Shown here: one piece after another, positions 3,969-63,336 of the stretch
Layout of the letters: each line of letters starts with the position of its first letter
Numbering within the stretch: the stretch's first letter is position 1
Assembly (NCBI GenBank): GCA_022572185.1
Contig: JACZWL010000007.1
Span: forward strand, 1 to 64,000
Length of the DNA stretch: 64,000 nucleotides
Direction of reading: 5' to 3'
DNA from: Pseudomonadota bacterium
Lineage (GTDB): Bacteria > Pseudomonadota > Gammaproteobacteria > Steroidobacterales > Woeseiaceae
Translations under genes and position numbers: made by a program
The notes under the pieces: generated by a model
What the model was told of the DNA's origin: nothing
What the model saw: the letters and a program-made list of their open reading frames with translations, nothing else
Database searches by the model: none

Positions 3969-4895
3969 TTAGGCAGGGAAGAAATCTATGGGTTTGGTGG
4001 TTGTGATGGCTTCGACATCTTTCGCTTCGAATCGGAACATCCTGATCCGCTGAACGAGCTTGCGCTCGAGATCCTCGTCACCCAGCTCACTGGACACGAT
4101 CTCGCAGAAGGTAACCTCGCCGGACGGTGCGATAGTCAGACGCAGAACCAGCTTTCCTTCGAGGCTTGGATCGATTCGCAATGCGCGATTGTAAAGCGCG
4201 AAGATCGCGCCCTTGTTCATGTCGAACACGAGTTCGATTTCTTCGCGGCTGCGAGATGCTTTGCCGCTCGAGCCAGTGCGGCGGGCTCCGCCCGCAGACT
4301 GGCCGAGGCCGGCAACCGGGCTGGATACCTGGGTCGTTGAACGGTCACCGAGGCCGGTGCCGCCCGTGTTCCGGCTCATATTGGCGGTGTTTATGCCGCG
4401 ACTTGCTGCACCGACTTTCGATGTGATCATGGCGCGCTCGTTACGTACGGCTACACCGACTGACGACGTCAAAACCCGGTTGTCAGCGACTCTCTCGAGT
4501 ACGTCGCTGTCTGCCAGCTCTGCCAGATCTTCAGCAAACGGCATGAATGCAGCCTGTGCTTTTTCGCGGGCGATTTTTTTGTAATCAATCGGCTCGGGTT
4601 CTTGCTCCACCACCCTCTCCGGCTCCGGGTCCCTGATCGAATCAGGCTCTTCGGGTTCCGGCTCCCTGGGTTCTGGCGGAGGCAGCGGCTTTTCCTGGAG
4701 TAAAAGCTTGGCGATGCGCGGCGGGATTTTCTCGACGTCATAAGGATCTGGCTCCATGGTCGGTATCCAGGGCCAGATAACACCAAGGACGAATGTCGCG
4801 GCAAATATGATAACGAGCAGGCGTCGGAATCTCCTTTCCTGGTCGGAGGTGTTGGACCACGGCAGCTCGTACTCTCTGTAAAAAGGCAAGTCCAA
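3969..4895 (-). CDS. AgmX/PglI C-terminal domain, TonB-like energy transducer (cluster A)
   Basis: A 308-residue protein: about 25 cytoplasmic residues, one transmembrane helix (about 27-46, LLVIIFAATFVLGVIWPWIP), a Pro/Glu-rich periplasmic linker (about 70-105), a Gly/Ser-rich segment, and a C-terminal domain (about 215-308) with GAIFALYNRALRIDPSLEGK and LTIAPSGEVTFCEIVSS. This C-terminal domain is the one shared by AgmX/PglI and TonB-like proteins. It probably carries the force generated by the ExbB/ExbD complex encoded just upstream. The start is TTG, supported by an AGGAG eight bases upstream. It is the last gene of the operon. Confidence 0.88.
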   Translation of the reverse strand: MDLPFYREYELPWSNTSDQERRFRRLLVIIFAATFVLGVIWPWIPTMEPDPYDVEKIPPRIAKLLLQEKPLPPPEPREPEPEEPDSIRDPEPERVVEQEPEPIDYKKIAREKAQAAFMPFAEDLAELADSDVLERVADNRVLTSSVGVAVRNERAMITSKVGAASRGINTANMSRNTGGTGLGDRSTTQVSSPVAGLGQSAGGARRTGSSGKASRSREEIELVFDMNKGAIFALYNRALRIDPSLEGKLVLRLTIAPSGEVTFCEIVSSELGDEDLERKLVQRIRMFRFEAKDVEAITTTKPIDFFPA

Positions 4896-4935: not shown

Positions 4936-5463
4936 CTAGCGCGACGCCGTAATTTTTTCCAGCTGATCCGAGCTCTTCTGCAATACCGCCAGAGAAATCC
5001 GGCCGTAGTCGGCCTTTGTACAGGTAGCCATGACCTTCTTGAGAAGTCTGTAGGGAATGTCTTTGTCTCCCATGATCGTTATTTCGCGATCGGCGATATC
5101 GTCCTGTGCTGCTCTTCGCAATACCCGATCGTTCTGTGACAACAAAGCCTGCCTCAGTTGTGGAATATCGTTTCCTTTGAGTTTCATTACGTCGGCGACT
5201 TTGGCAACTGGCGATCCCTGTACCAGGATGTCCTCTTCGCTGATCAGAATGACGACTGTTTCATTTGCCTTTTCTTCAGCTATCGACTGCGGCAACTGAA
5301 TATCTTTGGCGTTCGGCAGCGTCTCTACGTCTGAGGAATTGACGAGCAGGAAAAACACCAGGATCGTGAAAATGTCCATGAGGGCCACGAGGTTCAGCGC
5401 AACACCCTTCTTGCCGCGTTCGTGGCGCCGCTCCATGCGTTGTGCGCGTGTTGATTTATACAT
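4936..5463 (-). CDS. exbD: ExbD/TolR-family biopolymer transport protein, Asp-bearing subunit (cluster A)
   Basis: A 175-residue protein with a basic N-terminus, one transmembrane helix (about 22-43) and a periplasmic domain. The helix reads LNLVALMDIFTILVFFLLVN, and D30 aligns with the protonatable Asp of ExbD/TolR, so this subunit can take part in proton-driven force generation with ExbB. GGAGG lies about ten bases before the ATG at 5463. The gene starts four bases after the end of the other exbD gene, so the two are almost certainly co-translated. The symbol is generic and does not imply iron-siderophore function. Confidence 0.92.
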   Translation of the reverse strand: MYKSTRAQRMERRHERGKKGVALNLVALMDIFTILVFFLLVNSSDVETLPNAKDIQLPQSIAEEKANETVVILISEEDILVQGSPVAKVADVMKLKGNDIPQLRQALLSQNDRVLRRAAQDDIADREITIMGDKDIPYRLLKKVMATCTKADYGRISLAVLQKSSDQLEKITASR

Positions 5464-5466
5464 AAC

Positions 5467-5982
5467 TCAGACGCCTCCATCCAGAACCGGTGCATCGCCG
5501 ATGGATATGTCCGGGAACAGGTCCGTTCGCACGATAGTTTTTCGGACATCGTCGACCGTCTCGGCAATGCGCACGCGGTCCATTACCTGCACCAGCGTGT
5601 CGTAAGGTATTTCTCCTTCTAGCAAAATTGCCACGTCGGTCTTTTCTGGATATTTCTCCTTTATCTCGGCAAGTTTCTTGCTGAGTGCTGCATAGTCGTA
5701 GCCATATTCGGAGTTGGGATAGATACCCAAGGCACCCAGATTACGGTCACTGACCACAATTTGATTCTGGCGCACGGTGACTTCCAGCTGGAAGGTCTGA
5801 TCCTGCGGATCCGCGGGCTCGGTTGAGGAGCCTGGCAAATACAATTCGAGTATTGCCAGTCGCGAGAATACCGCTGTTATCAGCAGGAACGGAACCAGAA
5901 TCACCATCAGATTCATGAAAGCCGTGATGTTGAGCTCAGCCGCATCAACGTTGCCACGGCTGCCTCTGTGGCGACGTAACAT
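5467..5982 (-). CDS. ExbD/TolR-family protein lacking the conserved Asp (cluster A)
   Basis: A 171-residue ExbD-like protein with one transmembrane helix (about 17-37) and a periplasmic domain ending in the usual ExbD pattern (DVAILLEGEIPYDTLVQVMDRVR). The helix reads LNITAFMNLMVILVPFLLI: residue 24 is Asn (codon AAT) where ExbD/TolR/MotB proteins have the proton-carrying Asp. The neighbouring ExbD keeps its Asp, so the pair may form a mixed dimer in which only one helix can be protonated. GGAGG precedes the ATG, and the gene lies three bases after the ExbB-like gene. Confidence 0.9.
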   Translation of the reverse strand: MLRRHRGSRGNVDAAELNITAFMNLMVILVPFLLITAVFSRLAILELYLPGSSTEPADPQDQTFQLEVTVRQNQIVVSDRNLGALGIYPNSEYGYDYAALSKKLAEIKEKYPEKTDVAILLEGEIPYDTLVQVMDRVRIAETVDDVRKTIVRTDLFPDISIGDAPVLDGGV

Positions 5983-5985
5983 GGT

Positions 5986-6636
5986 TTAGCCTCCGGCAGG
6001 CTTCAGCTGACGTTCGGTAATTGCGTTAAGGAACTTGACGCTCGCCATTTCCAGACTGTCGACAATCTGGTTCGTTTTTGTCTGCAGAAGCACATGAATC
6101 AGAAGCAACGGAATTGCCACCATCAAACCAAACGCGGTCGTATTCATCGCAATGGAAATACTCGCCGACAGCATGTCCGCCTTATCCGCAGGATTGGCGT
6201 TAGCCACCGCCGTAAACGCACGAATCAGGCCGATAATTGTTCCGAGCAGCCCGAGGAGCGTTGCAATATTCGCGAGCGTCCCGAGATAGTGCGTGCGCTT
6301 CTCAAGTCGTGGCAGCACTTCCATCAGGCTCTCTTCCATGGCCTTCTCGACGTCGTCGCGACGTCGCGCCGACTTCACACGATAAAGTCCGTAAGTCAGG
6401 ATCGAGCCGATCGCTGCTTTCGACTTGCCGGTCACGGCGGCCGCTTCCTGGAAGTTGCCGGCCTTAAGGTACGGCACGATCTTCTTCCACAGCGCGCGGT
6501 TAGTTGCGCCGGACACAGTCAGATACGTCCAGCGTTCGATGGCGATTGCCAGTCCGAGCGCGAACACGATCAGGATCGGGTACATGAACAACCCACCCTG
6601 CTGGAAAAAACGGACCATGCCGCTTAAAACGTCCAT
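5986..6636 (-). CDS. exbB: MotA/TolQ/ExbB proton channel protein (cluster A)
   Basis: A 216-residue inner-membrane protein with three hydrophobic segments: about 16-36 (MYPILIVFALGLAIAIERW), about 115-137 (LGTLANIATLLGLLGTIIGLI) and about 160-185 (AMNTTAFGLMVAIPLLLIHVLL). The second and third carry the TLLGLLGTIIG and AMNTTAFGLMVAIP signatures of the TolQ/ExbB channel. Five copies normally surround a dimer of ExbD/TolR subunits. The ATG at 6636 is preferred because GAGGAGT precedes it at good spacing; an upstream in-frame start at 6660 lacks this. It is followed immediately by two different exbD genes. Confidence 0.93.
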   Translation of the reverse strand: MDVLSGMVRFFQQGGLFMYPILIVFALGLAIAIERWTYLTVSGATNRALWKKIVPYLKAGNFQEAAAVTGKSKAAIGSILTYGLYRVKSARRRDDVEKAMEESLMEVLPRLEKRTHYLGTLANIATLLGLLGTIIGLIRAFTAVANANPADKADMLSASISIAMNTTAFGLMVAIPLLLIHVLLQTKTNQIVDSLEMASVKFLNAITERQLKPAGG

Positions 6637-6702
6637 TTGATTACTCCTCTTCCAAATCAAATCATCTTACGTTTGTCTAATACTTGCGCTCATAATCAAG
6701 CG

Positions 6703-45890: not shown

Positions 45891-46616
45891 CTAGTCGGGG
45901 TTGGACGCGAATGACGGCGTCTCTTCGACAAACAGCGTCAGGCTGACTTTGCGCTCAAGCGCGAAGCTGTCGGGATTGTCGTCTGCTGCCGGTGATTCAC
46001 CGTGTGCAGCAAGCTTGATGCGTGACTCGGCAACGCCGTTGGATACCAGGACGTCCCGCACGTATTCTGCCCTCTGCGCGGAGAGCCTGTGGTTGTAGTC
46101 GGCGTCACCCCGCTCGTCCGCAAATCCGTCAAGCTGGACATAGATGTCAGGCATTGTTGAAAGATTTGCCGCGAGTTCCCGCAGCTTCGTGTCCGTCGTA
46201 ATGCCGAGCACGTGTTCGTCGGTACGGAACAACAGGTCCATTTCAATGCCGGCCTGCATCAGAGTGAGCAGTTCAGGTCTCGCAACCGCCTGCATACGCT
46301 GCAAATCGGCGCCCAGGGAGTCGATGTCACTGTTCAGCGCAGCGACGCTTTTTTCCAGTGCCGTAATCTTCTTTCTGGAGCTGACCAGTGAATCGGACAG
46401 CGTCGTTACCGTCGTGTTTTTCTTGTGGAACTCATCGCCCAACTTCGCGCCGACAGCTGCGCCGACAATGAACCCAACCGGGCCGCCCGCGACAGCACCA
46501 ATTATTCCACCGACGCCGAGTCCGATGCTTTCCCTCTTGGATGTGGTGCCCTCGGCCAGGGCCGGCGTCGCAATCAGGCAGGCAAGAATAGCAATAGCAA
46601 GATTTCTGTTACGCAT
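45891..46616 (-). CDS. OmpA-family protein with glycine-zipper segment
   Basis: A 241-residue exported protein. Signal peptide MRNRNLAIAILACLIATPALA, then a glycine-zipper helix (GLGVGGIIGAVAGGPVGFIVGAAVGAKLG), a coiled coil (SLVSSRKKITALEKSVAALNSDIDSLGADL) and a C-terminal peptidoglycan-binding OmpA domain (VQLDGFADERGDADYNHRLSAQRAEYVRDVLVSNGV and AAHGESPAADD). It anchors the outer membrane to the cell wall. ATG 46616 is chosen because GGAGG sits eight bases upstream; an ATG six bases earlier is too close to it. Confidence 0.93.
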   Translation of the reverse strand: MRNRNLAIAILACLIATPALAEGTTSKRESIGLGVGGIIGAVAGGPVGFIVGAAVGAKLGDEFHKKNTTVTTLSDSLVSSRKKITALEKSVAALNSDIDSLGADLQRMQAVARPELLTLMQAGIEMDLLFRTDEHVLGITTDTKLRELAANLSTMPDIYVQLDGFADERGDADYNHRLSAQRAEYVRDVLVSNGVAESRIKLAAHGESPAADDNPDSFALERKVSLTLFVEETPSFASNPD

Positions 46617-46995
46617 TGTCATTTCCTCCATGTGTCGGGCCACCCCTGTGGCCGCCAACAGAGTCAATTACAAGGCATAAATGGGGGCGTACGCAGTCTG
46701 TGGAATGGCAGGATGCCGATCAATTGTGGCGAATTGTGTTTTGCACAGAAAATACACTGGCGCAATCGCTCGAAAACGTGCATTTATATGCAGAACCATT
46801 TCCGTTGGTCGCTTAACAACCAGTGGTGTCCGTTCGAAATGACCGCTTTCGCTGCGGTCATTCAACCACGCTGATATTCAACGCTGTGATGAGCAGCAAT
46901 CGGCCAGGAGCGGCCAGTGCAGCCTCAGAATATACGTGACGGCCAAGCCTAACAGTTGAATTGCCTGGCGGATTGCGAGGATGCTTCCGGACGCA
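46617..46995. other. Intergenic region without recognisable genes
   Basis: No credible reading frame. Contains the ompA-like promoter at the left and a short GGCC-rich palindrome near 46900. Composition is lower in GC than the flanking core genes. Confidence 0.4.
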
Positions 46996-51563: not shown

Positions 51564-52562
51564 CTATCCCGCCCCCGTCAGGCCGACAAAGGTCCCGCCA
51601 TTGCGTTCACACAGGACTCTCATGAGCGCGGCAAACTTTTGCGATTCGTTCGGAACGCGTCCACCACCAAATTGGAACAGCGGAAAACCGACAGCGTGAA
51701 TCCTGACCATCTGGCTGCCATCCGGCTGTATTTTATTTTTTTGTGCGATGACTCTGACGACCGATTCCACAGATTTGCCACCGTAATCGTCTCCGAACAC
51801 GTAGATGCTGATTTTCTTGTCGCGAGACCAGAATGTGTCGATCGCATATATAATGCCATCGACCGGGTTACTGTCGCTGAATGGCGCCCATGTACGCATG
51901 GTATTCATGATTGCCTGGCGCCGCCCGGGTGTGTCGGGTATCCATTTTCCCGCGTATTGCTCGAACATGTACTTGCCGTTGTCGTTCATGATCTGTATGC
52001 CCTTGACTTCGGGATAGACTTCGAGCGTCTCGGTCAACTTTCTCTGCACGCGCCTCCAGTTATACTGCTGCATGCTGCCGGATGTGTCGATCACGAAAAT
52101 GATGTACTCACTGTCGACAGGAATCCCGGCCACCGCGCCGTCGTCCGGGCGTCTGTAATAGGGCTGGAGTTGCATCATTTCTTCGCTAAGTGTTTGCCGC
52201 GCAGCGAGGAGGTCGCCTTCGTCGATCACGGCCTCTGCGGAATCGTCGATCGTGACAGCGTACTGGCCCTGCACCGTATCCAACTCACCTTGCAACCGCG
52301 CGAGCGTCATCTTGGTATTTGATGTCTGTTCACGAACCGAAACGAGATCGCGGTTAAGCACTGCCGCTTGCCCGCGAATATCGAACAGCTCCTGCTCCAG
52401 CAATGCAATTAACGCTTCGAGGTCCACCTGTGTTTTCTCAATGATCGCGGGCTCATAGATTTTGCTGAGTACCAGCAACAGGATAACGGCGCCGAACCCG
52501 CAAGAGATGACGTCGAGGAAAGACAGGTTGAATGCCTCCATATTTCTGCGGCGCCTGGTCAC
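51564..52562 (-). CDS. vWA-domain protein with ExbD-like N-terminal helix (cluster B)
   Basis: A 332-residue protein. A basic N-terminus precedes one transmembrane helix (about 13-34, NLSFLDVISCGFGAVILLLV). It matches the ExbD/TolR helix, with Asp17 at the place of the protonatable Asp. A coiled coil (about 45-110) and a von Willebrand A domain (about 145-325) follow; the metal-ion site is DTSGS in FVIDTSGSMQQ. The GTG start overlaps the stop of the other vWA gene (GTGA), so the two are made together. The vWA domain should sit in the periplasm. It is the last gene of cluster B. Confidence 0.88.
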   Translation of the reverse strand: MTRRRRNMEAFNLSFLDVISCGFGAVILLLVLSKIYEPAIIEKTQVDLEALIALLEQELFDIRGQAAVLNRDLVSVREQTSNTKMTLARLQGELDTVQGQYAVTIDDSAEAVIDEGDLLAARQTLSEEMMQLQPYYRRPDDGAVAGIPVDSEYIIFVIDTSGSMQQYNWRRVQRKLTETLEVYPEVKGIQIMNDNGKYMFEQYAGKWIPDTPGRRQAIMNTMRTWAPFSDSNPVDGIIYAIDTFWSRDKKISIYVFGDDYGGKSVESVVRVIAQKNKIQPDGSQMVRIHAVGFPLFQFGGGRVPNESQKFAALMRVLCERNGGTFVGLTGAG

Positions 52563-53656
52563 GGCCAGTCCCTGCTGACGCTGACGAAGGATCCGCTGGT
52601 CGAGTTAGCGAGCGCCCAGTATGCGACTGCCGCGTCGTAATCGCCTTCCAGCGCATACAACAAGATATTGACAGGCACGCCGCTCGGTATCTCACGAACC
52701 GCCTGAGAATGCAGCGCATACCGCTCTCTGCCGGATATCGTCCTGCGACTGGTGGTGGCGTCCCGCATCGTCGGCAAGCCATCGGTCAGCAGAATCACGT
52801 TGTCGGGCCGTGGCGTTAGCTGCCTGATGACCCGATAGGCTGCATGCATGTTTGTGCCGTTCTGCGGTGGGGCCCGACGCAACGCCCTGATTGCCGCGTC
52901 GATCTGATTGCCGTCGCCTACGTCCAACCAGACGCCATCGCTGCCTTTTACAGCCGGTTTCGCCTCAGTGTTGAAAAGGTAAATCTGGAATTTGGCCTTC
53001 GTGGATAGCTGTGTGGCCAGCCAGTCGACGCTGGCGACGACCTGCCGCCACTTGACGGCGCGAAGCTTGTCCCTGTCAGCCATGTTCCGGCGTCGAAGTA
53101 TGTTGACGATTTTGCTGTCCAGCATGCTTGCCGAGTTGTCGACGAGGATGAGCACACGATCACCACCGACTTTAAGTCCGGTCAGGTATTGCCGGTCGCC
53201 GACCCCCTTGAACGCTCTGACTCTGGTGCCTTCGGCATCCTCTTCCTTGGCCAGCGCCAGTAGCCGTTTCTTTTCCTTTTCGAGCGACTCTATGTCCGAC
53301 TGCAGTTTCTCGATTCGCTCAATCTTTGCCAACGTGTCCTTGTCGTAAGTCGACAGCTCGGCTTTCAGCTCTTCGAGCAGGGCGATGATTTGCGCAATCT
53401 GTCCTTCCGCCCGCACTCTCTCGTCGTCGAGCTTCTCCTTCGTGTTTCTGGCAAGCACGAGATTCTTGCGCCCTTCGAGCACTTCGTATTCGAGCCTGTT
53501 CGTTTCGCCCATGAGCTCGCTGGTTTCGGTGTCGGCACTGTCCCTGACCTGGGCATTGATGATCATAAAAAACAGGATGACGGCGCCGAGCCCACAACTC
53601 ATAACGTCGAGGAACGACATGCCGATTATTTGCACTTCTCGTCTTTTACGCGCCAT
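52559..53656 (-). CDS. vWA-domain protein with ExbD-like N-terminal helix, second copy (cluster B)
   Basis: A 365-residue protein built like its neighbour: basic N-terminus, transmembrane helix with MSFLDVMSCGLGAVILFFMI (Asp17 again), a long coiled coil (about 45-140, KLDDERVRAEGQIAQIIALLEELKAEL and IEKLQSDIESLEKEKKRL), and a vWA domain (about 165-350) with MIDAS DNSAS in LILVDNSASM. It is not a duplicate; similarity is confined to the helix and domain plan. Together with the first vWA protein it probably forms the dimeric axle inside the ExbB-like ring encoded upstream. Confidence 0.88.
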   Translation of the reverse strand: MARKRREVQIIGMSFLDVMSCGLGAVILFFMIINAQVRDSADTETSELMGETNRLEYEVLEGRKNLVLARNTKEKLDDERVRAEGQIAQIIALLEELKAELSTYDKDTLAKIERIEKLQSDIESLEKEKKRLLALAKEEDAEGTRVRAFKGVGDRQYLTGLKVGGDRVLILVDNSASMLDSKIVNILRRRNMADRDKLRAVKWRQVVASVDWLATQLSTKAKFQIYLFNTEAKPAVKGSDGVWLDVGDGNQIDAAIRALRRAPPQNGTNMHAAYRVIRQLTPRPDNVILLTDGLPTMRDATTSRRTISGRERYALHSQAVREIPSGVPVNILLYALEGDYDAAVAYWALANSTSGSFVSVSRDWP

Positions 53657-55016
53657 GAGACTCGTCCGTAGCGATCAGCTGCAGCTCATGACCGGGCGAG
53701 CCCAGCCGGAGTATGTCACCCACCTGCAATACCGCAGACCCATCAATCCGGTGGCCATTGAGGAACGTCCCGTAACGGCTGTGGTCCTCCAAAACGCACT
53801 GACCGTTCTGACTTCGGACCGAGCAATGCCTCCTTGAAACACCCGGCATCTCGGCCGGCAGCGGTATCGTGCGTTCGCCCTCTGCGATCTTGGTCCCGAG
53901 TACCAGCGGCAAATCTTCGATCCTGTAGGCCATGTGATCAAACAGCAGATGTGTCGGCCGCGCCGAGTGCGCTTGTTCTGCCTGTTCAGACCTGACTTCG
54001 ACAGCCGCCTGGTCCCAGGGCAGTTGCCGGATCAGGCTGATACCATCGGCAGAGCCTGACTGATCATGACAGCGCGCCAGTGCGCCGCGTGCCGTGGCGC
54101 CGGGCTCCAGCAGAAAAACTGCGCCGCCGACCCGCGCTTTGAGCATATCCGCCAGGCCCGGCAAGCTTGCCACTCGATCCGACAACTGAATCGCCGGCGT
54201 ATCTTCTGCGCGGTACAAAGCCCGTAACTTGCTCGCGATGCTTTGATATATCGGCGCAGCAGCACCAATCAATTCTAATGATTCGATCTCGGCTTCATGA
54301 CTTAATTGCCCGTACTCCAGGTCAAGCTTCACGGTCTCATTCGAACAGGCGGCCGTCAGCCAGCCAGCGAGCCGGTTTAGGAGCACTTGCTCGGTCTGGG
54401 CCGTATGCAACGGGTCGAAACGGGACTGCTGCACGAAGGCTTCCGCGATTATTCTGATCCACACATCGTAAAGCGCGTAAATGCCACAGGAATCCAGGAT
54501 CTCGACACGATCGATCTGGGTCCGCCCGGGTTGCGCAAGACGCGTAAGACTCGTCGAATGCAGGCTCATATCGATGTGAACCGGGACTGCGTTTTTGTAC
54601 TCGCGGCGCGTCGCCGCAACGGCCGAATCCACCATTGCGATAACAGGCAGTTTGATTTCCGACGCGATGCCAAGCAGCAGGCCGAGATTGTTCGTGCTCA
54701 TATATGGCGGCACGGCAACGATGAGGTCCTTGTGTGTGGCTGCCAGCGGGCGCCACATCTGCTCGAGTTGACGGCTTGCCAGATCCGCAGCGCTCAGGTG
54801 CCGAAATCGCTGATCGGCAAGCGGTGTCGTTACCAGGTTAGACCAGTAGTTGTGCTGAATTCTTCGCGGCTTTATCCTGGCTGCCGCATATGCCTCATTG
54901 CCCGTCGTAAGCCGATCGTCGTCGAGCAATGCGAAGCCGGGCTCGCGATATAAGATTCGCTTTGAGTCGAGTGCCGTTATTCCGGCATCGTTTATGTGTG
55001 CAGCAACAACACTCAA
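53646..55016 (-). CDS. Hsp70/actin-like protein with C-terminal FHA domain (cluster B)
   Basis: A 456-residue protein. Residues 1-330 follow the Hsp70/actin ATPase layout: DLIVAVPPYMSTNNLGLLLGIASEIKLPVIAMVDSAVAATRR mirrors the Hsp70 adenosine region, and VPVHIDMSLHSTSLTRL mirrors phosphate-2. The phosphate-1 motif is poorly kept, so ATP binding is doubtful. Residues about 365-450 form an FHA domain with GVSRRHCSVRSQNGQCVLEDHSRYGTFLNGHRI, which binds phospho-Thr, presumably made by the kinase of this operon. Translation starts at TTG 55016 (AGGA nine bases upstream). Its 3' end overlaps the vWA gene by 11 bases. Confidence 0.87.
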   Translation of the reverse strand: MSVVAAHINDAGITALDSKRILYREPGFALLDDDRLTTGNEAYAAARIKPRRIQHNYWSNLVTTPLADQRFRHLSAADLASRQLEQMWRPLAATHKDLIVAVPPYMSTNNLGLLLGIASEIKLPVIAMVDSAVAATRREYKNAVPVHIDMSLHSTSLTRLAQPGRTQIDRVEILDSCGIYALYDVWIRIIAEAFVQQSRFDPLHTAQTEQVLLNRLAGWLTAACSNETVKLDLEYGQLSHEAEIESLELIGAAAPIYQSIASKLRALYRAEDTPAIQLSDRVASLPGLADMLKARVGGAVFLLEPGATARGALARCHDQSGSADGISLIRQLPWDQAAVEVRSEQAEQAHSARPTHLLFDHMAYRIEDLPLVLGTKIAEGERTIPLPAEMPGVSRRHCSVRSQNGQCVLEDHSRYGTFLNGHRIDGSAVLQVGDILRLGSPGHELQLIATDESHGA

Positions 55017-55035: not shown

Positions 55036-55836
55036 TCAATCCGCTTTCATATGGCGAATCAGCTTGTCGTCACAATAATTCTCGCTGTCGAAAACCAGAT
55101 TGTCCTCCAGCAGTTGTAGCTGATGTACAAGAAACATCAGGAAAATACTGATCAGCAGCGCGATGAACGTAGAGTTGAACGCGATGCCAAGACTCAGGGT
55201 CACGCCGGCGATGTCGCCGTGCACCGCCTTGTCGGCCTGCGCGAGCGCCTCACCAATACCTCGAACCGTTCCGATGAACCCGATCGAGGGAATTGCCCAG
55301 GTGATATATCGGATCATTGACAGTTCGGACTCCAGCTTCTCCGCCTCTGATTCGCAAATCGTGTGCGTGCTGGTGGAGACATCCTGAATGTTCCTCGTCG
55401 AACCAAAACGATGCAGTGCATTGAGCAAGGCACGCGGCAGCAACATCTGTCGATTTTCCTCGGGCAGCGCCTCTACCTGCCGCGCAAACTCGCGCGTGTC
55501 TTCGGGTAATATTCGCATCCCCTCGGCAACAGGGACCAGATTGATGTCGAGAAGTTTTCGTTCGTTGAGAATACTGACCGTCTTGTAACCCATGATGGCC
55601 AATGCCCAGAACATCAGGATGAAACAGGACTCCTGCTCGAGGTCCTTGATCAGCACCCAGGTCGATCGTGCCCGGACATAGTCCGGATCTGCCGCGGCAG
55701 CCTCGGCTTGTTCCTCGATAACCTGTGCTGCGTTCGGACGAACGACCGAAACATAGAACGCATGCACGATGATGATCGAGATAATCAATGCGAAGAGCTG
55801 AAAAATAAACTCTACCGGGAGGGTTTTTTTCTTCAT
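55036..55836 (-). CDS. MotA/TolQ/ExbB-family channel protein (cluster B)
   Basis: About 266 residues with four hydrophobic stretches: about 10-31, 60-77, 180-202 (ITWAIPSIGFIGTVRGIGEAL) and 215-245 (VTLSLGIAFNSTFIALLISIFLMFLVH). The last two carry the ExbB/TolQ channel signature. It differs from the cluster A ExbB in having an insertion of about 90 residues between helices. The ATG at 55836 is preferred; a TTG at 55863 would add nine residues. Two near-identical 13-base stretches (AATTGTCATCGAA) lie just upstream. There is no classical ExbD gene; the two vWA proteins probably take that place. Confidence 0.88.
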   Translation of the reverse strand: MKKKTLPVEFIFQLFALIISIIIVHAFYVSVVRPNAAQVIEEQAEAAAADPDYVRARSTWVLIKDLEQESCFILMFWALAIMGYKTVSILNERKLLDINLVPVAEGMRILPEDTREFARQVEALPEENRQMLLPRALLNALHRFGSTRNIQDVSTSTHTICESEAEKLESELSMIRYITWAIPSIGFIGTVRGIGEALAQADKAVHGDIAGVTLSLGIAFNSTFIALLISIFLMFLVHQLQLLEDNLVFDSENYCDDKLIRHMKAD

Positions 55837-55887
55837 AAAACGAAACTCATCATTCGATGACAATTACGATTCGATGACAATTACGGA

Positions 55888-56211: not shown

Positions 56212-58638
56212 TCACTCAACGTTTCTGGCGATTCGGAATCCGACGTCCGTGCGTGGCTCCGTGCCGAAATCGCGATAACTCAGTCGCAGCTCCATAATGC
56301 CGGCGTGGCGCCAGCTCGAGCCACGGATAACATGGTGTGTACCCCGGTCGGGACCCGCAGGATCGACGACGGCCTGAGTCTGGCCAGGCGTAGGCACCGA
56401 GTAAATATCGTTCACCCATTCGGCCACATTGCCGCCTCCGTCATGAATACCGAGCGCATTTGCCGGAAATGTGCCAACGGCCGCCGTGGACGCATAACCG
56501 TCGTCGTAGCGCGGTAGAATTGTTGGCACGAGTCCGACAGCAGATTGGTCGGCATAATTCCCCGCCTCGCCCCGCGGAGGGAGCTTTTCTCCCCAGGAGA
56601 ACCTGGATGCCTTGGCGCTGCCCTGATAGCGAATCGCCCAGGCCCACTCCGCCTCGCTGGGCAATCGGTAGCCGTTCGGAACCGGTTGGATCGGCACCCA
56701 TTTGTCGAATTTCAGTTCGTAGGCCGGCGCCAATCCTTCTTTCGCGCTCAGCCAGTTGCAATATTCAACGGCGTCCTCCCAGGTCACGTTTGCGACCGGA
56801 TTGTTGTCACCGGCCAGAGACGCATGAACGTCAGCGCCAGAATCGTGTCCTTTCCTGAACTTAGCAAATTCCTTGTTGCTCACTTCCTTTGCGCCGATAA
56901 AAAACGGCCTGGTCAGGGTCACGGGGACAAGCACTTCATTGGCGCGCCTGCCCTGCTCGCTCCGCGAGGCGCCCATAGTAAAACTGCCGGGTTCGACGCG
57001 CCGCAAAATCTGGCTCTCGGACGTCGTGATCGTCAGCGCAATCGACGCCTGGCGGATCTCCTCTTTGGAGCGAAGCCGTACCTGAACCGTTTGCGGATAG
57101 CCCGGGCGCGGCGTAATGCTGCGACTAAAGGACTCATAGCCTTCACTACGGACTTCGAGACGATGCGGGGCGGAGCTGAGATTCAGCGTTACCGTTCCGG
57201 TACCGCGCGCGCGCCCGTCAATATAAACCGTGGCGGCGGACGGATATGCACGCACGGTCACTCTGCCGGTGCGTGCCGTCAGGTCCACGGTGATTTCTTC
57301 CCTGGCGGCGGAGCCGAGACGAATCCTGCGCGTCGCCGACCCGTAACCGGCCTTGGACATGCCGATTTCATAATTAATGTCCGGAGAGAGCGAGAGATTG
57401 ACCGGCGACTGCCCCCGGTAGCGGCCGTTGACGGTCACGTTGGCGGCGCGGGGTATCGTGTTGACCAGCAGCCGGGCGTTGGCGGGCTCGAGCTGGATAG
57501 TCGGAATGAGCTGATCGACGTTGGGTGCTGCGGTAATCGTGCCGTCCCACGCCTTGTAGCCGTCGAGGATGATGCTGAGGTCATGCGTCCCTTCGAGCAG
57601 CTCGAGAAGCATCGGTGTCAGCCCCAGCTTTTGTTCGCCTTCATAAATGGTGGCGCCGGACGGTTCTGTTGATACATCGACATTTGCCCAGCGCGGGACG
57701 AGCTGAACGCGTACTTCTTCCTGGCGGCCGAGGCCGGGGATCTCGAACACATCGGAAAACGGCAGGAACCGATCGGCGCTGACTGTGACCGAGTGCACAC
57801 CGGGTTGCAGCTCGACAGGGCCGTAAGGCGCCTGGCCGACGATACCTTCATCGATCGTAACGATCGCATCGACGACCGGATCGGTCATGACCGTGAGTTG
57901 TCCCGGCAACTTTCGTAGGACCAGTTCGAACGTCTGGCTCTGCGCATCACTGACCGTCAGACTCAGGCTGAGATCATAATAGCCGTCTTTCTTGACGTGC
58001 ACGGTATAACTCCCCGTGCGCATAAGAAAACGATTGCCCAAGGGAAGCCGAAACCAGCCACCGGTAATCTCGAAGTCATCAGGCGCACCGGGCTGAATGG
58101 TAAATTGAACGGACCTCGCACTGAATAGAAGGTAGGACGCGATCACCAGCGCCGCCAGCACGCCGCCAATGATTGCCTGCCAGTGATGTTTTCGTGGCTC
58201 AATTGTCCGGGCGGCAATATCGGATGCACGCTTGAATGCCGCCGGCGCAATCGCTTCCTCTTCAAGCTCGCCGGCCGTGCCCGGCAGCTCCGGCGGCTTG
58301 GTCACATAGGCGCTGTCTTCGAGTTGAATCTGAAGACGTAACGCCCCGTGCTGCTCTCCGATCTCGATGCGGCTGCCAAAGAACTCCAATGTATCGCCGG
58401 CAGTCAGCCGTCTGCTTGTAGTCAACGGCGCGCCGTTCAGCTGCAGTGCGCCGTCCCCGCCAACGGGTTGCACGAAGGGCGCATCGTCAAGTATGTCGAG
58501 CAACGCGACGGGACCGCCACCGGGCCCCGGCAACCGAAGTTCACATTCAATGCCGGTGCCGAGGCGCAGTGGCAGACGCTCAATGTCTATTCGCCGTTCA
58601 CCTTCTGCATCGAGAATTACTACGGCGTCAAAACTCAA
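56212..58638 (-). CDS. FHA-TM-PEGA-SUMF1 protein (cluster B)
   Basis: An 808-residue protein. Residues about 1-105 form an FHA-like domain (IDIERLPLRLGTGIECELRLPG and LTAGDTLEFFGSRIEIG); one transmembrane helix lies at about 155-175; at least four PEGA repeats follow (about 245-530: NVDVSTEPSGATIYEGEQKLG, RVTVRAYPSAATVYIDGRARG); the C-terminal 250 residues are a SUMF1/EgtB-type domain (FTMGASRSEQG, YRLPSEAEWAWAIR, GGNVAEWVNDIY, RGSSWRHAGIMELRLSYRDFG). The catalytic Cys of true sulfatase-modifying enzymes is missing, so it is probably a binding domain. The TTG start at 58638 overlaps the kinase stop (TTGA) and has GAGGA seven bases upstream. Confidence 0.88.
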   Translation of the reverse strand: MSFDAVVILDAEGERRIDIERLPLRLGTGIECELRLPGPGGGPVALLDILDDAPFVQPVGGDGALQLNGAPLTTSRRLTAGDTLEFFGSRIEIGEQHGALRLQIQLEDSAYVTKPPELPGTAGELEEEAIAPAAFKRASDIAARTIEPRKHHWQAIIGGVLAALVIASYLLFSARSVQFTIQPGAPDDFEITGGWFRLPLGNRFLMRTGSYTVHVKKDGYYDLSLSLTVSDAQSQTFELVLRKLPGQLTVMTDPVVDAIVTIDEGIVGQAPYGPVELQPGVHSVTVSADRFLPFSDVFEIPGLGRQEEVRVQLVPRWANVDVSTEPSGATIYEGEQKLGLTPMLLELLEGTHDLSIILDGYKAWDGTITAAPNVDQLIPTIQLEPANARLLVNTIPRAANVTVNGRYRGQSPVNLSLSPDINYEIGMSKAGYGSATRRIRLGSAAREEITVDLTARTGRVTVRAYPSAATVYIDGRARGTGTVTLNLSSAPHRLEVRSEGYESFSRSITPRPGYPQTVQVRLRSKEEIRQASIALTITTSESQILRRVEPGSFTMGASRSEQGRRANEVLVPVTLTRPFFIGAKEVSNKEFAKFRKGHDSGADVHASLAGDNNPVANVTWEDAVEYCNWLSAKEGLAPAYELKFDKWVPIQPVPNGYRLPSEAEWAWAIRYQGSAKASRFSWGEKLPPRGEAGNYADQSAVGLVPTILPRYDDGYASTAAVGTFPANALGIHDGGGNVAEWVNDIYSVPTPGQTQAVVDPAGPDRGTHHVIRGSSWRHAGIMELRLSYRDFGTEPRTDVGFRIARNVE

Positions 58639-61001
58639 ATCTGTTCCTCGCAACGGACGATAATGGCTTGAAGTTCGATCTCCGGAGATACCCTGAACTC
58701 GAGCCGGACATCACGGTAGCCGGGTCGACTGCCTACGGCCACGTAAGTACCGGGACGGAGGCTAATCTCCTGTGAATCAAACCTGCCTAGTTTACCAACC
58801 CTGAATATCACAACTTCCGTTGCATTATCGGAAATCAGACGTACGGTCAATTCTGTTGTCGCTCGTTTGAGCAATCGGGATAGCTGGTCTTTCTGGTCGT
58901 CGAGTCGCGGGCCGACAGAGGGCATGCGGATTATATCGAGTAGCGTTTGCGTCGCAGCCTGCATAGTCGCAGGGTCGCTGAGACTGTCGGGATCCGCAAT
59001 ATATTTCTCGAGCGTCTGATGCAGAGCAGCTCGCCCGTTTGACCGTGCCAGACCTGCATGCGCAAAATTCAGATCGGGATCGACTTCGAGAATCGCATGG
59101 TACTTTTGCACGGCGGCATCCCACTGCTCCTTGCCCTCGAGCCTTGTTGCGTCACGCTCCATTACCGCGATTTTTTCGAGTCGAATGCCCTGATCGACCT
59201 GCAGCAAGCCATCGGCAGGCTCCCGCGAATCGGACTGCAAGACCTGTGCGGTCCTGAATGCGGCCCTGGCTGTCAGAAAATCACCGTCGGCCAGGGCTTC
59301 AAGCCCTTCCGTCATTCTCTGGTCGAATGACATCTGATTGCTTGCCACCAGGACGCGTTGCAGTCCCTCCACCGCCGCTTGCCATTCGGCGTCGAGTGCC
59401 AGCGCTTTCTCGAAAGCGAGCCTCGCCGCATCAAGATCGAGATCCTGCTCAAGACCGACGCCCTGCTTCGTCAGACTCATGACCAGGTCAAGATTTCTTG
59501 CACGCGTAAGACCATTATGCGCTTCGGCATGACCCGGGCTAATTGCTACAGCAAGTTCATAATGGCGCAATGCCGCAACGCTATCGCCCGCTTCAAGGGC
59601 GGTACGCCCGTCGTTCATCGTTTCCTCGAAAACCACGTCCACCCGGTCGAGAAGAGGATCGATGATCGTTATGGTTTGCCGATACTTTTCAGCCGCCAGC
59701 TTGTAGTTCCGCTGGAGATATGCGCGATCGCCGTCGGCGTAGACCTCCTGCGCTTCCACATACACCTGACCACCCCAGCGACCTACGGCCCTTGCCTCCA
59801 GCGTTTCGAGTTTCGACAATAATTCACCGAGCGCTTGTTCGGTATCGTGTTTTGCGCGTACCTGTTCGGTGCGCTTCGTGAAATCATCGATGTTTTCGTT
59901 GAATGGCAGATTGTCGCCGGCATCGGGCAGTCGAGTTTCCCCGTCCGGAACTGTCGCTACCGGCTCAGGCGTTTTGCCCCCGCGATTGCCGACCAAATTC
60001 GGCAAAACAAAAACAACCGCCAGAAAAATGAGGAGTGCCCCGGCCAATGCCCCGGCAAGTACGCGTGGAGACATGCCGGTCCGCTGCTCCGCTTTGCGTG
60101 ATGCCAGCGGCTGTGTGTGTGTGCGATGCTCGAGGGGGCGGATGGTTGGCCCGATGGCGACAACATCAAGGTCTTCGACACCGGCGACAAATCGGGCAGG
60201 TACCGGACCGGCATCAATCCCTGCGTCCCGTAGTCTCTGCGCCACGGACCCGGCGTCCGGGCGCGCGCTCGGGTCCCTGGCCAGCATTCGCGAAACAAGC
60301 GTCGCGATCGACGCAGGTACGGCGGTACCGTTCTTCGCCATCAACGGCTCCGGATCCTTGTTCAGACTGTCGCCAGCCGTCCCCGGGTGTGGAGGGCGGC
60401 TGCTTATCAGTTCGTAAATCAGGGCGCCGAGGCTGTAAATATCATCTTCCGGTCCCGGCGCCTCCCCGGCGAGCTGCTGGGGGCTGGAGGCAATTGGCGA
60501 GCCGCCTGTCGCCGCATGATCCTGATCGGAATGTGCCGCGACACCAAAATCGATCAGGTACGGCACACCTCTGTTATCCAGCAGAATATTGGCCGCCTTT
60601 ATGTCCCGGTGAATGACGTTCTTCCCGTGGGCATACCGCAGGGCATCGGCGATCAGTCCGATCGGCCGCAATACGACCTCGATGTCCTCGCCCGCCAGCA
60701 CAGCGATATCCGGGCCACCGATGTATTGCAGACTGAAAAAGGGTCCCTCGTCGGTATCGTGGTATTCGAATACGCGAACAATGTTGGCATGCATCAACCT
60801 GGAACCAAGCTGCCATTCCTTGCGCAGGAGCTTGCGATATCCAGTGTTGTCGGCCAATTCGGGCAACAGAAACTTGAGCGCGACAGATTTTTCGGTTTGT
60901 CGATCCTGCGCAAGCCAGATTTCCGACATGCCACCCGAACCGAGTCGGCGGACCAGCGTGTAGCGATCAGCTAGCTGTGCACCTTTTTCCAGGACGCGCA
61001 T
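58635..61001 (-). CDS. Membrane Ser/Thr protein kinase with extracytoplasmic helical repeats (cluster B)
   Basis: A 788-residue eukaryotic-type kinase. N-terminal domain: glycine loop GSGGMS (21-26), catalytic Lys43 in VALKFL, Glu62, HRDIKAANIL (131-140) and DFG (151-153). A transmembrane helix lies at about 314-336 (VLAGALAGALLIFLAVVFVLP). The outside part (about 360-730) is TPR-like (AALRHYELAVAISPGHAEAHNGL, AARLAFEKALALDAEWQAAVEGL). The last 55 residues are a small beta domain. It probably phosphorylates Thr in itself or in cluster B partners recognised by the two FHA domains. The ATG at 61001 has only a weak ribosome site. Confidence 0.94.
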   Translation of the reverse strand: MRVLEKGAQLADRYTLVRRLGSGGMSEIWLAQDRQTEKSVALKFLLPELADNTGYRKLLRKEWQLGSRLMHANIVRVFEYHDTDEGPFFSLQYIGGPDIAVLAGEDIEVVLRPIGLIADALRYAHGKNVIHRDIKAANILLDNRGVPYLIDFGVAAHSDQDHAATGGSPIASSPQQLAGEAPGPEDDIYSLGALIYELISSRPPHPGTAGDSLNKDPEPLMAKNGTAVPASIATLVSRMLARDPSARPDAGSVAQRLRDAGIDAGPVPARFVAGVEDLDVVAIGPTIRPLEHRTHTQPLASRKAEQRTGMSPRVLAGALAGALLIFLAVVFVLPNLVGNRGGKTPEPVATVPDGETRLPDAGDNLPFNENIDDFTKRTEQVRAKHDTEQALGELLSKLETLEARAVGRWGGQVYVEAQEVYADGDRAYLQRNYKLAAEKYRQTITIIDPLLDRVDVVFEETMNDGRTALEAGDSVAALRHYELAVAISPGHAEAHNGLTRARNLDLVMSLTKQGVGLEQDLDLDAARLAFEKALALDAEWQAAVEGLQRVLVASNQMSFDQRMTEGLEALADGDFLTARAAFRTAQVLQSDSREPADGLLQVDQGIRLEKIAVMERDATRLEGKEQWDAAVQKYHAILEVDPDLNFAHAGLARSNGRAALHQTLEKYIADPDSLSDPATMQAATQTLLDIIRMPSVGPRLDDQKDQLSRLLKRATTELTVRLISDNATEVVIFRVGKLGRFDSQEISLRPGTYVAVGSRPGYRDVRLEFRVSPEIELQAIIVRCEEQI

Positions 61002-61020: not shown

Positions 61021-62259
61021 TCAACCTGACGGTTGCTCGCCCCTGGTCGGCACACCAACTTCCAGCGGCCCCGAAAACCCGGTCTCCGCCTGGTAGATTT
61101 GTTTGAGAAGTCGGCGCCAGCTTTCGTACTGTGCCGCGGCCGTGCCAGTCAGACGCCGGGTCTCACCTTGAACAGTAATGACCATCGGCGCCGCTTCCGA
61201 GCCAAAGGACTCGGACAGCTCCTTGATCGACTCGAGGTGTATTTTGGCTTCGCTGCGCCGGGTCAGGCCGCTCATAATGGCCTCAAACCCCTTCGTAATA
61301 CCGACTGTCTGGATGCCGCGTTTCATTCTCCGCGTCGAAGAGTGCGAGCTATTGTCTGTATCCATGGCAACCGAGCCGGCCAGCACCACAACGCCCAGGA
61401 GGGTGCGCATTGCCGCCGATCGCCTGACCTGCCGGTAGTTTACCTGCTCTTCGCGAGAGATTTTGCGCCAGCCTTCGTACGGAATCGCGATCCCGTAATA
61501 GAAATTTGCATAGTGTTCGTTCAAGGTATCGACGACGAGGCGGTCGCGTTCGCGAATCTGTCGCAGCCGGGCAGCCGTCGGATCGTTTTCTGCCGGCAGG
61601 CGAACAATGCTTATAGTTCCATCTTTGTTATTCGCAAGGTGGTTACCGAACGACAGCGGTGCCATGTCACCGAAAAACTGCAGCTCCGATACCTGCCTGA
61701 TTTGTCGAACCTGCTTTGCCGGAAGCGCCGCCACATATTCGCGCAGGTCATTTGAGAAATCGTTAAACACATTCTGATACGGGTCGGTGGAACGGTCGCG
61801 AAACTCGTCGTACGACGAGATTCCGGTCTGCGTTTCATAGACCCTTTCGAACCACTCATGGCCCATTGCGTCCTCGACCTTGATCCGCAATTCCACATAT
61901 TCGCCGTTGGATTTTTCAATTACACCGCTGACGATGACATCTGTAAAAGCCCTACGTGATGGAATGACGCGCACGGCTCCCCAGTGGCCGGTGCCTTGCA
62001 GCGTTGTTTTCAGGTGATAGGGCAGATAGCGAACTTCCGCTGATCGCACTTCCTCGTAAATGCCGGTTTTTACCGGATCGTTGTTTTCAGGGACGCCGCC
62101 GTCAAACTCGACAATGCCGATGTCGAGGAGCAGTTCCTCGGGTGGGGCAATCTCGGCGACATCGAGATGGTTTACTTCCGCCGTGATGACTTCATTGACG
62201 GCGCAGCCGGATACCATCCCTGCTGCAACAATCAGAAAGCATAATTTCTTTATCATCAC
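61021..62259 (-). CDS. Lipoprotein of unknown function (cluster B)
   Basis: A 412-residue lipoprotein (lipobox VSGC, Cys19). No domain is recognised. Segments such as LDIGIVEFDGGVPENND, YLPYHLKTTLQGTGHWGAVRVIPSRRAFTDVIVSGVIEKSNGEYVELRIKVEDAMGHEWFERVYETQTG read like the GNA1162/Lpp20-type or CsgG-like beta-alpha proteins that assemble at the outer membrane. A short hydrophobic helix (AAMRTLLGVVVLAGSVAM, about 292-309) is odd for a soluble protein. Start: GTG 62259 or ATG 62256, with AAGGAG upstream. It lies between the Gly-rich lipoprotein and the kinase gene. Confidence 0.8.
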   Translation of the reverse strand: MMIKKLCFLIVAAGMVSGCAVNEVITAEVNHLDVAEIAPPEELLLDIGIVEFDGGVPENNDPVKTGIYEEVRSAEVRYLPYHLKTTLQGTGHWGAVRVIPSRRAFTDVIVSGVIEKSNGEYVELRIKVEDAMGHEWFERVYETQTGISSYDEFRDRSTDPYQNVFNDFSNDLREYVAALPAKQVRQIRQVSELQFFGDMAPLSFGNHLANNKDGTISIVRLPAENDPTAARLRQIRERDRLVVDTLNEHYANFYYGIAIPYEGWRKISREEQVNYRQVRRSAAMRTLLGVVVLAGSVAMDTDNSSHSSTRRMKRGIQTVGITKGFEAIMSGLTRRSEAKIHLESIKELSESFGSEAAPMVITVQGETRRLTGTAAAQYESWRRLLKQIYQAETGFSGPLEVGVPTRGEQPSG

Positions 62260-62274
62260 GACAGACGTTTCTCC

Positions 62275-63336
62275 TTAGAGGCCATTGTACTTACGGTATT
62301 CTTCCCAGAGTCGCTCTCGCAATTCCGGATCATCTTCGGCCAGCGCCGCTTCATACAGTTGCCTGGCAACAATATCGTCCCCGACATTTTCCATGATGTC
62401 GTCCGGAAGGCGGGCCTGAATATCGTCCTCACTCATGGCGCCGATCGATGACTGCCGTTCGTCGGTGGGATTGAGCACGGAAACTGAACCACTGGTGCTG
62501 TTGCCGCCGGCCTGTCCGCCAAGGCCGACGCGCCCACCGGACCCGCCGCTGCCGCCCGTGCCAAAACCCTCAGTGTTCCGGCCTACGGTGGAAATCTGCC
62601 GCTGTTCTTCCATCAGGACTTCGTCGAAGTCTCCTACAGATTCGTCCAGCTCTTTGCCGAGACGCGCGGCGCGCTCCGCATCGCTTTCACCAGGATATTG
62701 ACCAACACCGCCGGCTGCACCGGCGCCATCCTCATCACCTGGGCCCCCGGCCTCATCGACAGTCGCACCCTCGCCGGCCGCGCCACCGTCACCACATTCC
62801 CCGGTCTGGCCCATGCCGCCGACACCGCCAGGCAGGCTGATGCCGCCGCAATCGGGATCGCCACCACCTTCGCCGTCACCGTCACCGTCGCCATCACCAT
62901 CGCCGTCACCAACGCCCTCACCCGCAGCGCTACCACTGGCACCTTCCATTGTCGCGCCACCGATGCCGGGAATCTCGAGCCCGGGCAGGCCACCGGATGA
63001 CCCACCCGCAGAACCACCGGGCATGCCAGCGCCACCTGCCGAACCACCGCTTGAAGCATCGCCACCGGAGGAGCCACCACCCGAAGCACCACCGCCCGCT
63101 GACCCGCCACCGGACGAACCACCACCGGACGAACCACCACCGGATGAACCACCACCGGATGAACCACCACCGGACGAACCACCACCGGACGAGCCGCCAC
63201 CGGACGAACCACCGCCGGATGAGCCGCCCGACAAGTCCATCGATGCACAGCCACTGGCGAGCACCACGACGATCAGGGCCGCGGCAAGCAGCTTGAACCG
63301 ACGGCGAAACGAGCCAGATATGCTGATTATGTTCAT
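62275..63336 (-). CDS. Gly/Ser-repeat lipoprotein, first gene of cluster B
   Basis: A 353-residue lipoprotein (lipobox LASGC, Cys30). Right after the Cys comes a run of GGSSG repeats (about residues 35-95), then Gly-rich low-complexity sequence, a GDGDGDGD stretch, a short Cys pair (DPDCGG, TGECGDGG), and an ordered C-terminal part (IGAMSEDDIQARLPDDIMENVGDDIVARQLYEAALAEDDPELRERLWEEYRKYNGL). The Gly/Ser run probably acts as a flexible tether between membrane anchor and C-terminal helix. Its number of repeats may vary between strains. It opens the operon; 664 bases upstream of it show no other gene. Confidence 0.88.
   Translation of the reverse strand: MNIISISGSFRRRFKLLAAALIVVVLASGCASMDLSGGSSGGGSSGGGSSGGGSSGGGSSGGGSSGGGSSGGGSSGGGSAGGGASGGGSSGGDASSGGSAGGAGMPGGSAGGSSGGLPGLEIPGIGGATMEGASGSAAGEGVGDGDGDGDGDGDGEGGGDPDCGGISLPGGVGGMGQTGECGDGGAAGEGATVDEAGGPGDEDGAGAAGGVGQYPGESDAERAARLGKELDESVGDFDEVLMEEQRQISTVGRNTEGFGTGGSGGSGGRVGLGGQAGGNSTSGSVSVLNPTDERQSSIGAMSEDDIQARLPDDIMENVGDDIVARQLYEAALAEDDPELRERLWEEYRKYNGL
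63061..63232 (-). repeat. 15-base tandem repeats coding GGSSG
   Basis: On the plus strand the unit reads CCACCGGAYGAACCA, with a few variant units at the left end (GCC, CCCGAAGC). About eleven units run through the coding sequence in frame. It is a minisatellite inside the Gly/Ser lipoprotein gene. Confidence 0.9.

Follow-up and report, generated by a model that had tools for sequence, protein, structure and literature searches.

The stretch of DNA analysed here (64,000 nucleotides, hereafter the window) carries eight tightly packed genes, all on the minus strand, running from 63336 down to 51564. The first encodes lipoprotein 1 (62275-63336; 353 aa; lipobox ASGC), a protein with Gly/Ser-rich repeats whose sequence is poorly conserved and whose position is conserved; its long repeat of the GGGSSGGGSS type resembles an artificial flexible linker. 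Lipoprotein 2 (61021-62259; 412 aa; lipobox VSGC) has an alanine at position +2, so that sorting to the outer membrane is expected. Operons of different orders and classes have kept it, and no Pfam family matched it. These are followed by a Ser/Thr kinase-TM-TPR protein (58635-61001) in which both the HRD and DFG motifs are present, and by a protein composed of an FHA-like segment, a TM segment, five PEGA repeats and an FGE/SUMF1-like domain without catalytic cysteines (56212-58653), whose best NCBIfam match is GldK/PorK; its N-terminal FHA-like segment was assigned by reading the sequence. Next come an ExbB-like (MotA/TolQ/ExbB) channel subunit (55036-55863) and a protein with an actin/Hsp70-like region, recognized by motif only, and a C-terminal FHA domain (53646-55016), which is missing in part of the relatives. 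The last two genes encode the vWA proteins vWA1 (52559-53656) and vWA2 (51564-52562), and overlap by 4 bases. Pfam analysis of the operon proteins gave FHA, PEGA, FGE-sulfatase and Pkinase matches.

vWA1 (365 aa; MARKRREVQIIGMSFLDVMSCGLGAVILFFMIINAQ) consists of a helix containing Asp17 (residues 14-35), a coiled coil reaching to residue 142 and a vWA domain (residues 167-365), and vWA2 (332 aa; MTRRRRNMEAFNLSFLDVISCGFGAVILLLVLSK) is its paralogue, with an Asp17 helix, a coiled coil and a vWA domain with a MIDAS. Both N-termini follow a common pattern of a basic stretch, SFLD-x3-CG(F/L)GA and a hydrophobic run. Comparison of the two N-terminal segments using hhalign gave a probability of 99.6-99.7 with E ~1e-24, and by this sequence criterion the homology of the two helices is clear. 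The AlphaFold2 model of vWA1, the protein for which the vWA fold was modelled, was built from a 57-sequence alignment (pLDDT 86) and showed a helix spanning residues 14-104, a second helix at residues 111-142 and the vWA domain. Foldseek analysis with this model retrieved vWA domains such as those of TEM8 and CMG2, and the Pfam VWA matches of the vWA proteins were weak. The MIDAS motif is complete in vWA1 (D173, S175, S177, T268 and D292) and in vWA2 (D159, S161, S163, S231 and D258), with all of these residues conserved among homologues, and the C-terminal Trp-Pro of vWA1 is invariant. Thus the earlier note on this DNA was right to place a coiled coil and a metal-dependent vWA domain where ExbD has its periplasmic domain. 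No specific family name for vWA1 or vWA2 was found in Pfam, NCBIfam or PADLOC, and a search of PDB sequences using the vWA1 profile yielded nothing beyond coiled-coil matches and unrelated proteins.

The N-terminal helix described in that note is present in both proteins, with the Asp at residue 17 of each. This residue was Asp in 178/178 unique vWA1 homologues and 189/189 unique vWA2 homologues (77/77 and 80/80 respectively in named genomes), and the poor conservation that the note had named as a possible objection to its reading was not observed. Residues 18-20 are variable in both proteins, and F15, C21, G22, G24 and A25 are nearly fixed. Two hydrophobic residues, an Asp and 13 uncharged residues in succession were found in 51/51 scored family members compared with 6/475 control membrane segments; the Asp17 pattern exceeds chance.

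The note had also claimed that these helices align without gaps to those of ExbD and TolR. Helix PSSMs, built from 18 (ExbD) and seven (MotB) gammaproteobacterial sequences, both scored the vWA helices within the range of the 475 control membrane segments, which were partly proxy ORFs from fetched loci. Values obtained using hhalign were 1-2% against ExbD, the same level as for the control segments, and 1-9% against MotB, with Asp placed on Asp. The Pfam families ExbD (PF02472) and MotB_plug were found in 0/97 vWA members, among the families listed; PF02472 matched none of the window's operon proteins at E up to 1, and no MotB_plug, OmpA-like or Zorya profile matched the vWA proteins. The CGFGA after the Asp is a signature of the vWA proteins, and none of the collected ExbD or MotB helices has it. 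The comparison with the ExbD and MotB families therefore went against the claimed alignment, and direct homology is unsupported by either the PSSM or the hhalign analysis; what stood of the claim is the Asp at its position in the helix, and the partner protein. Since sequence support was absent, and since the single helix is N-in, carries the Asp at its cytoplasmic end and has an obligate ExbB-like neighbour, the likeness to ExbD appears to be functional. The term 'ExbD/TolR-type' thus probably describes how the vWA helix works, with descent not proven.

The partner is the ExbB-like protein encoded at 55036-55863, two genes upstream as had been claimed. It has one hydrophobic helix more than TolQ/ExbB, four in all, and matched Pfam MotA_ExbB (PF01618) at 2e-12. 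When its profile was aligned with E. coli TolQ using HMMER, T199 and T232 fell on TolQ T145 and T178, which are the pore (proton-path) threonines of the MotA/TolQ/ExbB family (for the vWA class, see PMC12204202). Both residues were threonine in 153/153 homologues. With the AlphaFold2 model (pLDDT 92) as the query, Foldseek placed TolQ/ExbB structures at the top, with ZorA, PomA and MotA below them. A separate feature of this protein is Arg201, which follows the pore threonine in GTVRGIG and occupies the place of a tryptophan in TolQ (GTVWGI); the arginine is also invariant (153/153).

The vWA pair and the ExbB-like gene were concordant in 98/99 relatives, of which 88 had both vWA1 and the ExbB-like gene, ten had neither and one, a 67%-complete genome, had vWA1 only. 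The order FGE, ExbB-like, (FHA), vWA1, vWA2 was constant in nearly all loci. One could argue that the vWA helix is simply a membrane anchor of the usual kind, in which the Asp has a structural or signal role, and that the ExbB-like protein is a chance neighbour or a non-conducting scaffold; the failure of the helix to show significant similarity to ExbD or MotB would fit this view. However, the perfect conservation of the Asp and of both pore threonines, together with the co-occurrence, has largely refuted this explanation already, and we give it hardly any credence.

A second explanation concerns ExbD itself: the vWA proteins might be peripheral transducers on the side of the ring, as TonB or TolA are, with an ExbD from elsewhere in the genome serving as the axle. 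The window's genome has five ExbD genes, and another vWA family, which binds the side of the ring, is described in PMC12204202. However, an ExbD gene was found in 0/187 loci with a vWA member, and the five in the window's genome all lie in other clusters, the nearest ~46 kb off and within the window. The vWA helices, moreover, have an invariant Asp and do not have the His of the SHLS motif, which serves in side binding (PMC12204202), the motif being absent from the helix of all of the vWA members shown. A side-binding role is thus improbable, although somewhat less so than that of a plain anchor. Taken together, the Asp, the threonines, the co-occurrence, the synteny, the absence of ExbD and the predicted continuation of the helix into a coiled coil all agree with the earlier reading of the system as a stator, which they support well, though indirectly.

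Two adjoining ExbD-like genes of the window (4984-5403 and 5563-5943, minus strand) lie next to an ExbB-like gene (5986-6660); their other neighbours are a TonB-like gene (3969-4895) and genes for long TPR proteins. One has the Asp (LVALMDIF) and the other has an Asn instead (ITAFMNLM), so the axle of that motor may have a single proton carrier.

The idea of a motor with a vWA axle is already published and is not new here. In the section of PMC12204202 (Mol Biol Evol 2025) on this class, vWA proteins carrying a 'transpore helix' (TPH-vWA) are said to occur as heterologous pairs beside a tolQ-like gene, with a seed from Idiomarina loihiensis and no tolR or exbD alongside; the AF3 models presented there have the Asp pair inside the threonine ring. 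The published class model thus places the helix inside the ring, where the earlier note had allowed that modelling might place it outside. The same text states explicitly that the sister vWA family has no experimental phenotype, and reports none for the TPH-vWA family. In the present loci, the vWA proteins have a single N-terminal helix whose Asp is conserved and which, in the members shown, lacks the SHLS motif; their genes form heterologous pairs in close synteny with a tolQ-like gene, and no tolR or exbD lies alongside (0/187 loci). As all of the class features tested in this way, as given in that section, are present, the window's system is a member of the proposed TPH-vWA class. It differs in that the window's operon is larger, with kinase-TPR, FHA, PEGA-FGE and lipoprotein genes that are unmentioned in the section text of PMC12204202. 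Literature searches for vWA with ExbB and formylglycine, or for PEGA with TolQ, found no description of the operon. What is new here is the conservation, residue by residue and in more than 150 sequences, of both partners in the proposed proton path, together with the conserved operon, its cysteine-less GldK-like FGE domain and the accessory nature of the kinase.

A scan of a genome collection gave at least 585 confirmed relatives. The best 80 of these loci were from Gammaproteobacteria (Microbulbifer, Bowmanella, Halieaceae, Porticoccus and others) and also from Desulfobacterales, Desulfobulbus, Desulfuromonadales, Acidobacteria and Thermoanaerobaculia, and homologous operons were found in the GTDB family of Bowmanella. 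The distribution is patchy within the window's phylum (18/398 sampled genomes), and within its class relatives were detected in 28/274 sampled genomes, with some of the matches weak. The conserved operon, comprising lipoproteins, TPR, PEGA-FGE, ExbB-like, FHA, vWA1 and vWA2, is shared by Gammaproteobacteria, Desulfobacterota and Acidobacteriota. It exists in two forms: eight genes, among them the FHA/actin-like gene, or a compact set of seven that lacks it. Both forms occur together in some genomes (G067, loci L049/L050, and G080, locus L061, each with two complete copies; G856; and G884), so they probably have different jobs. Among the matches listed are relatives in marine genera including Microbulbifer, Bowmanella, Parahaliea and Seongchinamella, and since these include cultivable bacteria, the function should be testable by gene deletion.

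The FGE domain was closest to GldK/PorK in NCBIfam in 5/5 proteins tested, below the GldK cut-off, and its catalytic segment had no cysteine in 62/64 proteins in which the segment was recognized (27 more were unrecognized). The loss of these cysteines suggests that the domain is likely to be structural. In many relatives the TPR protein is reduced to its TM-TPR part; the kinase domain was found in the window's TPR protein and in 5/7 TPR proteins scanned from relatives, and its absence from the others indicates that the kinase is accessory. Its occurrence in the window's family and several others and its absence elsewhere look as if it had been repeatedly gained or lost. As to the genes downstream of vWA2, about a third of the 99 loci have two lipoproteins without a Pfam family and an M48 metallopeptidase on the same strand (e.g. 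L163:6974-9851). This set occurs in many Gammaproteobacteria and is absent behind the window's vWA2. An OmpA-domain protein with a glycine zipper is encoded 4.9 kb downstream of the window's vWA2 (45891-46667, minus strand); its homologue lies directly behind vWA2 in locus L047 and near vWA2 in a few other loci.

The presence in one operon of a kinase, two FHA-type proteins and vWA domains could also mean that the system is a sensor, in which load on the envelope or a bound ligand is signalled to the kinase and FHA proteins, and proton flow acts as a gate; vWA domains act in surface sensing elsewhere (PMC9210963). However, the kinase and FHA genes are missing in many otherwise complete operons, whereas the Asp and the threonines never are, and a sensor is therefore unlikely. 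These components point to regulation, not to the engine, since in many relatives the kinase, the FHA/actin-like gene or both are absent.

We therefore favour a motor. Gene order, co-occurrence, conserved residues and single-chain folds make it very probable that the operon encodes a proton-driven motor of the 5:2 class in the inner membrane, with the ExbB-like protein as the ring and vWA1 and vWA2 as the axle. By analogy with TolQR, ExbBD and MotAB, the ExbB-like protein would form a pentameric ring. The pairing of the vWA genes suggests that one vWA1 and one vWA2 would form a heterodimeric two-helix central axle, for which AglQ and AglS, described in a review of 5:2 motors (PMC9389320) as two MotB-like partners of one AglR, may be a precedent. 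Proton exchange between Asp17 on the axle and T199/T232 on the ring would drive a stepwise rotation of the axle against the ring, as the same three systems suggest. The axle helices would extend into the periplasm as a coiled-coil shaft carrying two vWA heads with metal sites, which may bind, and then pull or turn, outer-membrane partners, as the lipoboxes and the PEGA, TPR and FGE domains suggest. These partners would most likely be the operon's own lipoproteins, the periplasmic PEGA-FGE (GldK-like) protein and the TPR protein. In the window, the Ser/Thr kinase and the two FHA-type proteins could serve as a cytoplasmic switch for the machine. Possible cellular roles are outer-membrane maintenance, secretion or surface adhesion; we lean towards force exerted on outer-membrane lipoproteins, because lipoproteins, joined at some loci by the M48 peptidase, accompany the system most often. 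The system would represent a predicted branch of motors with ligand-binding vWA heads on the axle, for which the operon names likely partners.

Motors of the 5:2 type drive flagella, nutrient uptake, outer-membrane stability, gliding and phage defence. The present system resembles ExbBD/TolQR (PF01618 plus PF02472) in having a ring subunit with both threonines and an axle Asp near the cytoplasmic end, but differs in the absence of PF02472, the coiled coil and vWA domain found instead, the use of two different axle proteins and the CGFGA signature. With MotAB and ZorAB it shares the predicted 5:2 architecture and the axle Asp, and ZorA, PomA and MotA appeared lower in the Foldseek list; however, it has no OmpA/peptidoglycan-binding domain and no Zorya genes. 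PADLOC ZorB matched none of the window's proteins, and the only PADLOC matches to Zorya or other listed defence systems were generic ones (kinase and coiled coil) and a very weak one to ZorA. In the AglR-AglQ-AglS motor of Myxococcus gliding, likewise, a single MotA-like ring protein has two partners that resemble MotB/ExbD. AglQ and AglS are not known to have a vWA domain, and CglB, the vWA adhesin of that gliding system, is a separate lipoprotein.

Membership in the type IX secretion system (GldKLMN) was rejected, as only the FGE domain resembles GldK, and this under the cut-off; the GldL and GldM family models matched neither ring nor axle, and no gldN was present among the operon proteins scanned. 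The window's FGE-like protein also differs from GldK in being a TM-anchored PEGA protein and not a lipoprotein. The likeness to GldK-GldL-GldM of type IX secretion and gliding lies in the order of an FGE-like protein, a ring and an axle with a long periplasmic shaft, and in the FGE domain, which NCBIfam places nearest GldK. This order and the GldK-like domain suggest a parallel with gldK-gldL-gldM, in which GldK contacts GldM (PMC9389320). As a tentative proposal, which we hold to be less likely than not, the operon may encode a trans-envelope machine parallel to the GldKLM core, found in Proteobacteria, Desulfobacterota and Acidobacteriota, in which the ring and its obligate heterodimeric vWA1/vWA2 axle would turn a catalytically dead, GldK-like FGE/PEGA assembly and outer-membrane lipoproteins, with a kinase/FHA switch in some lineages.
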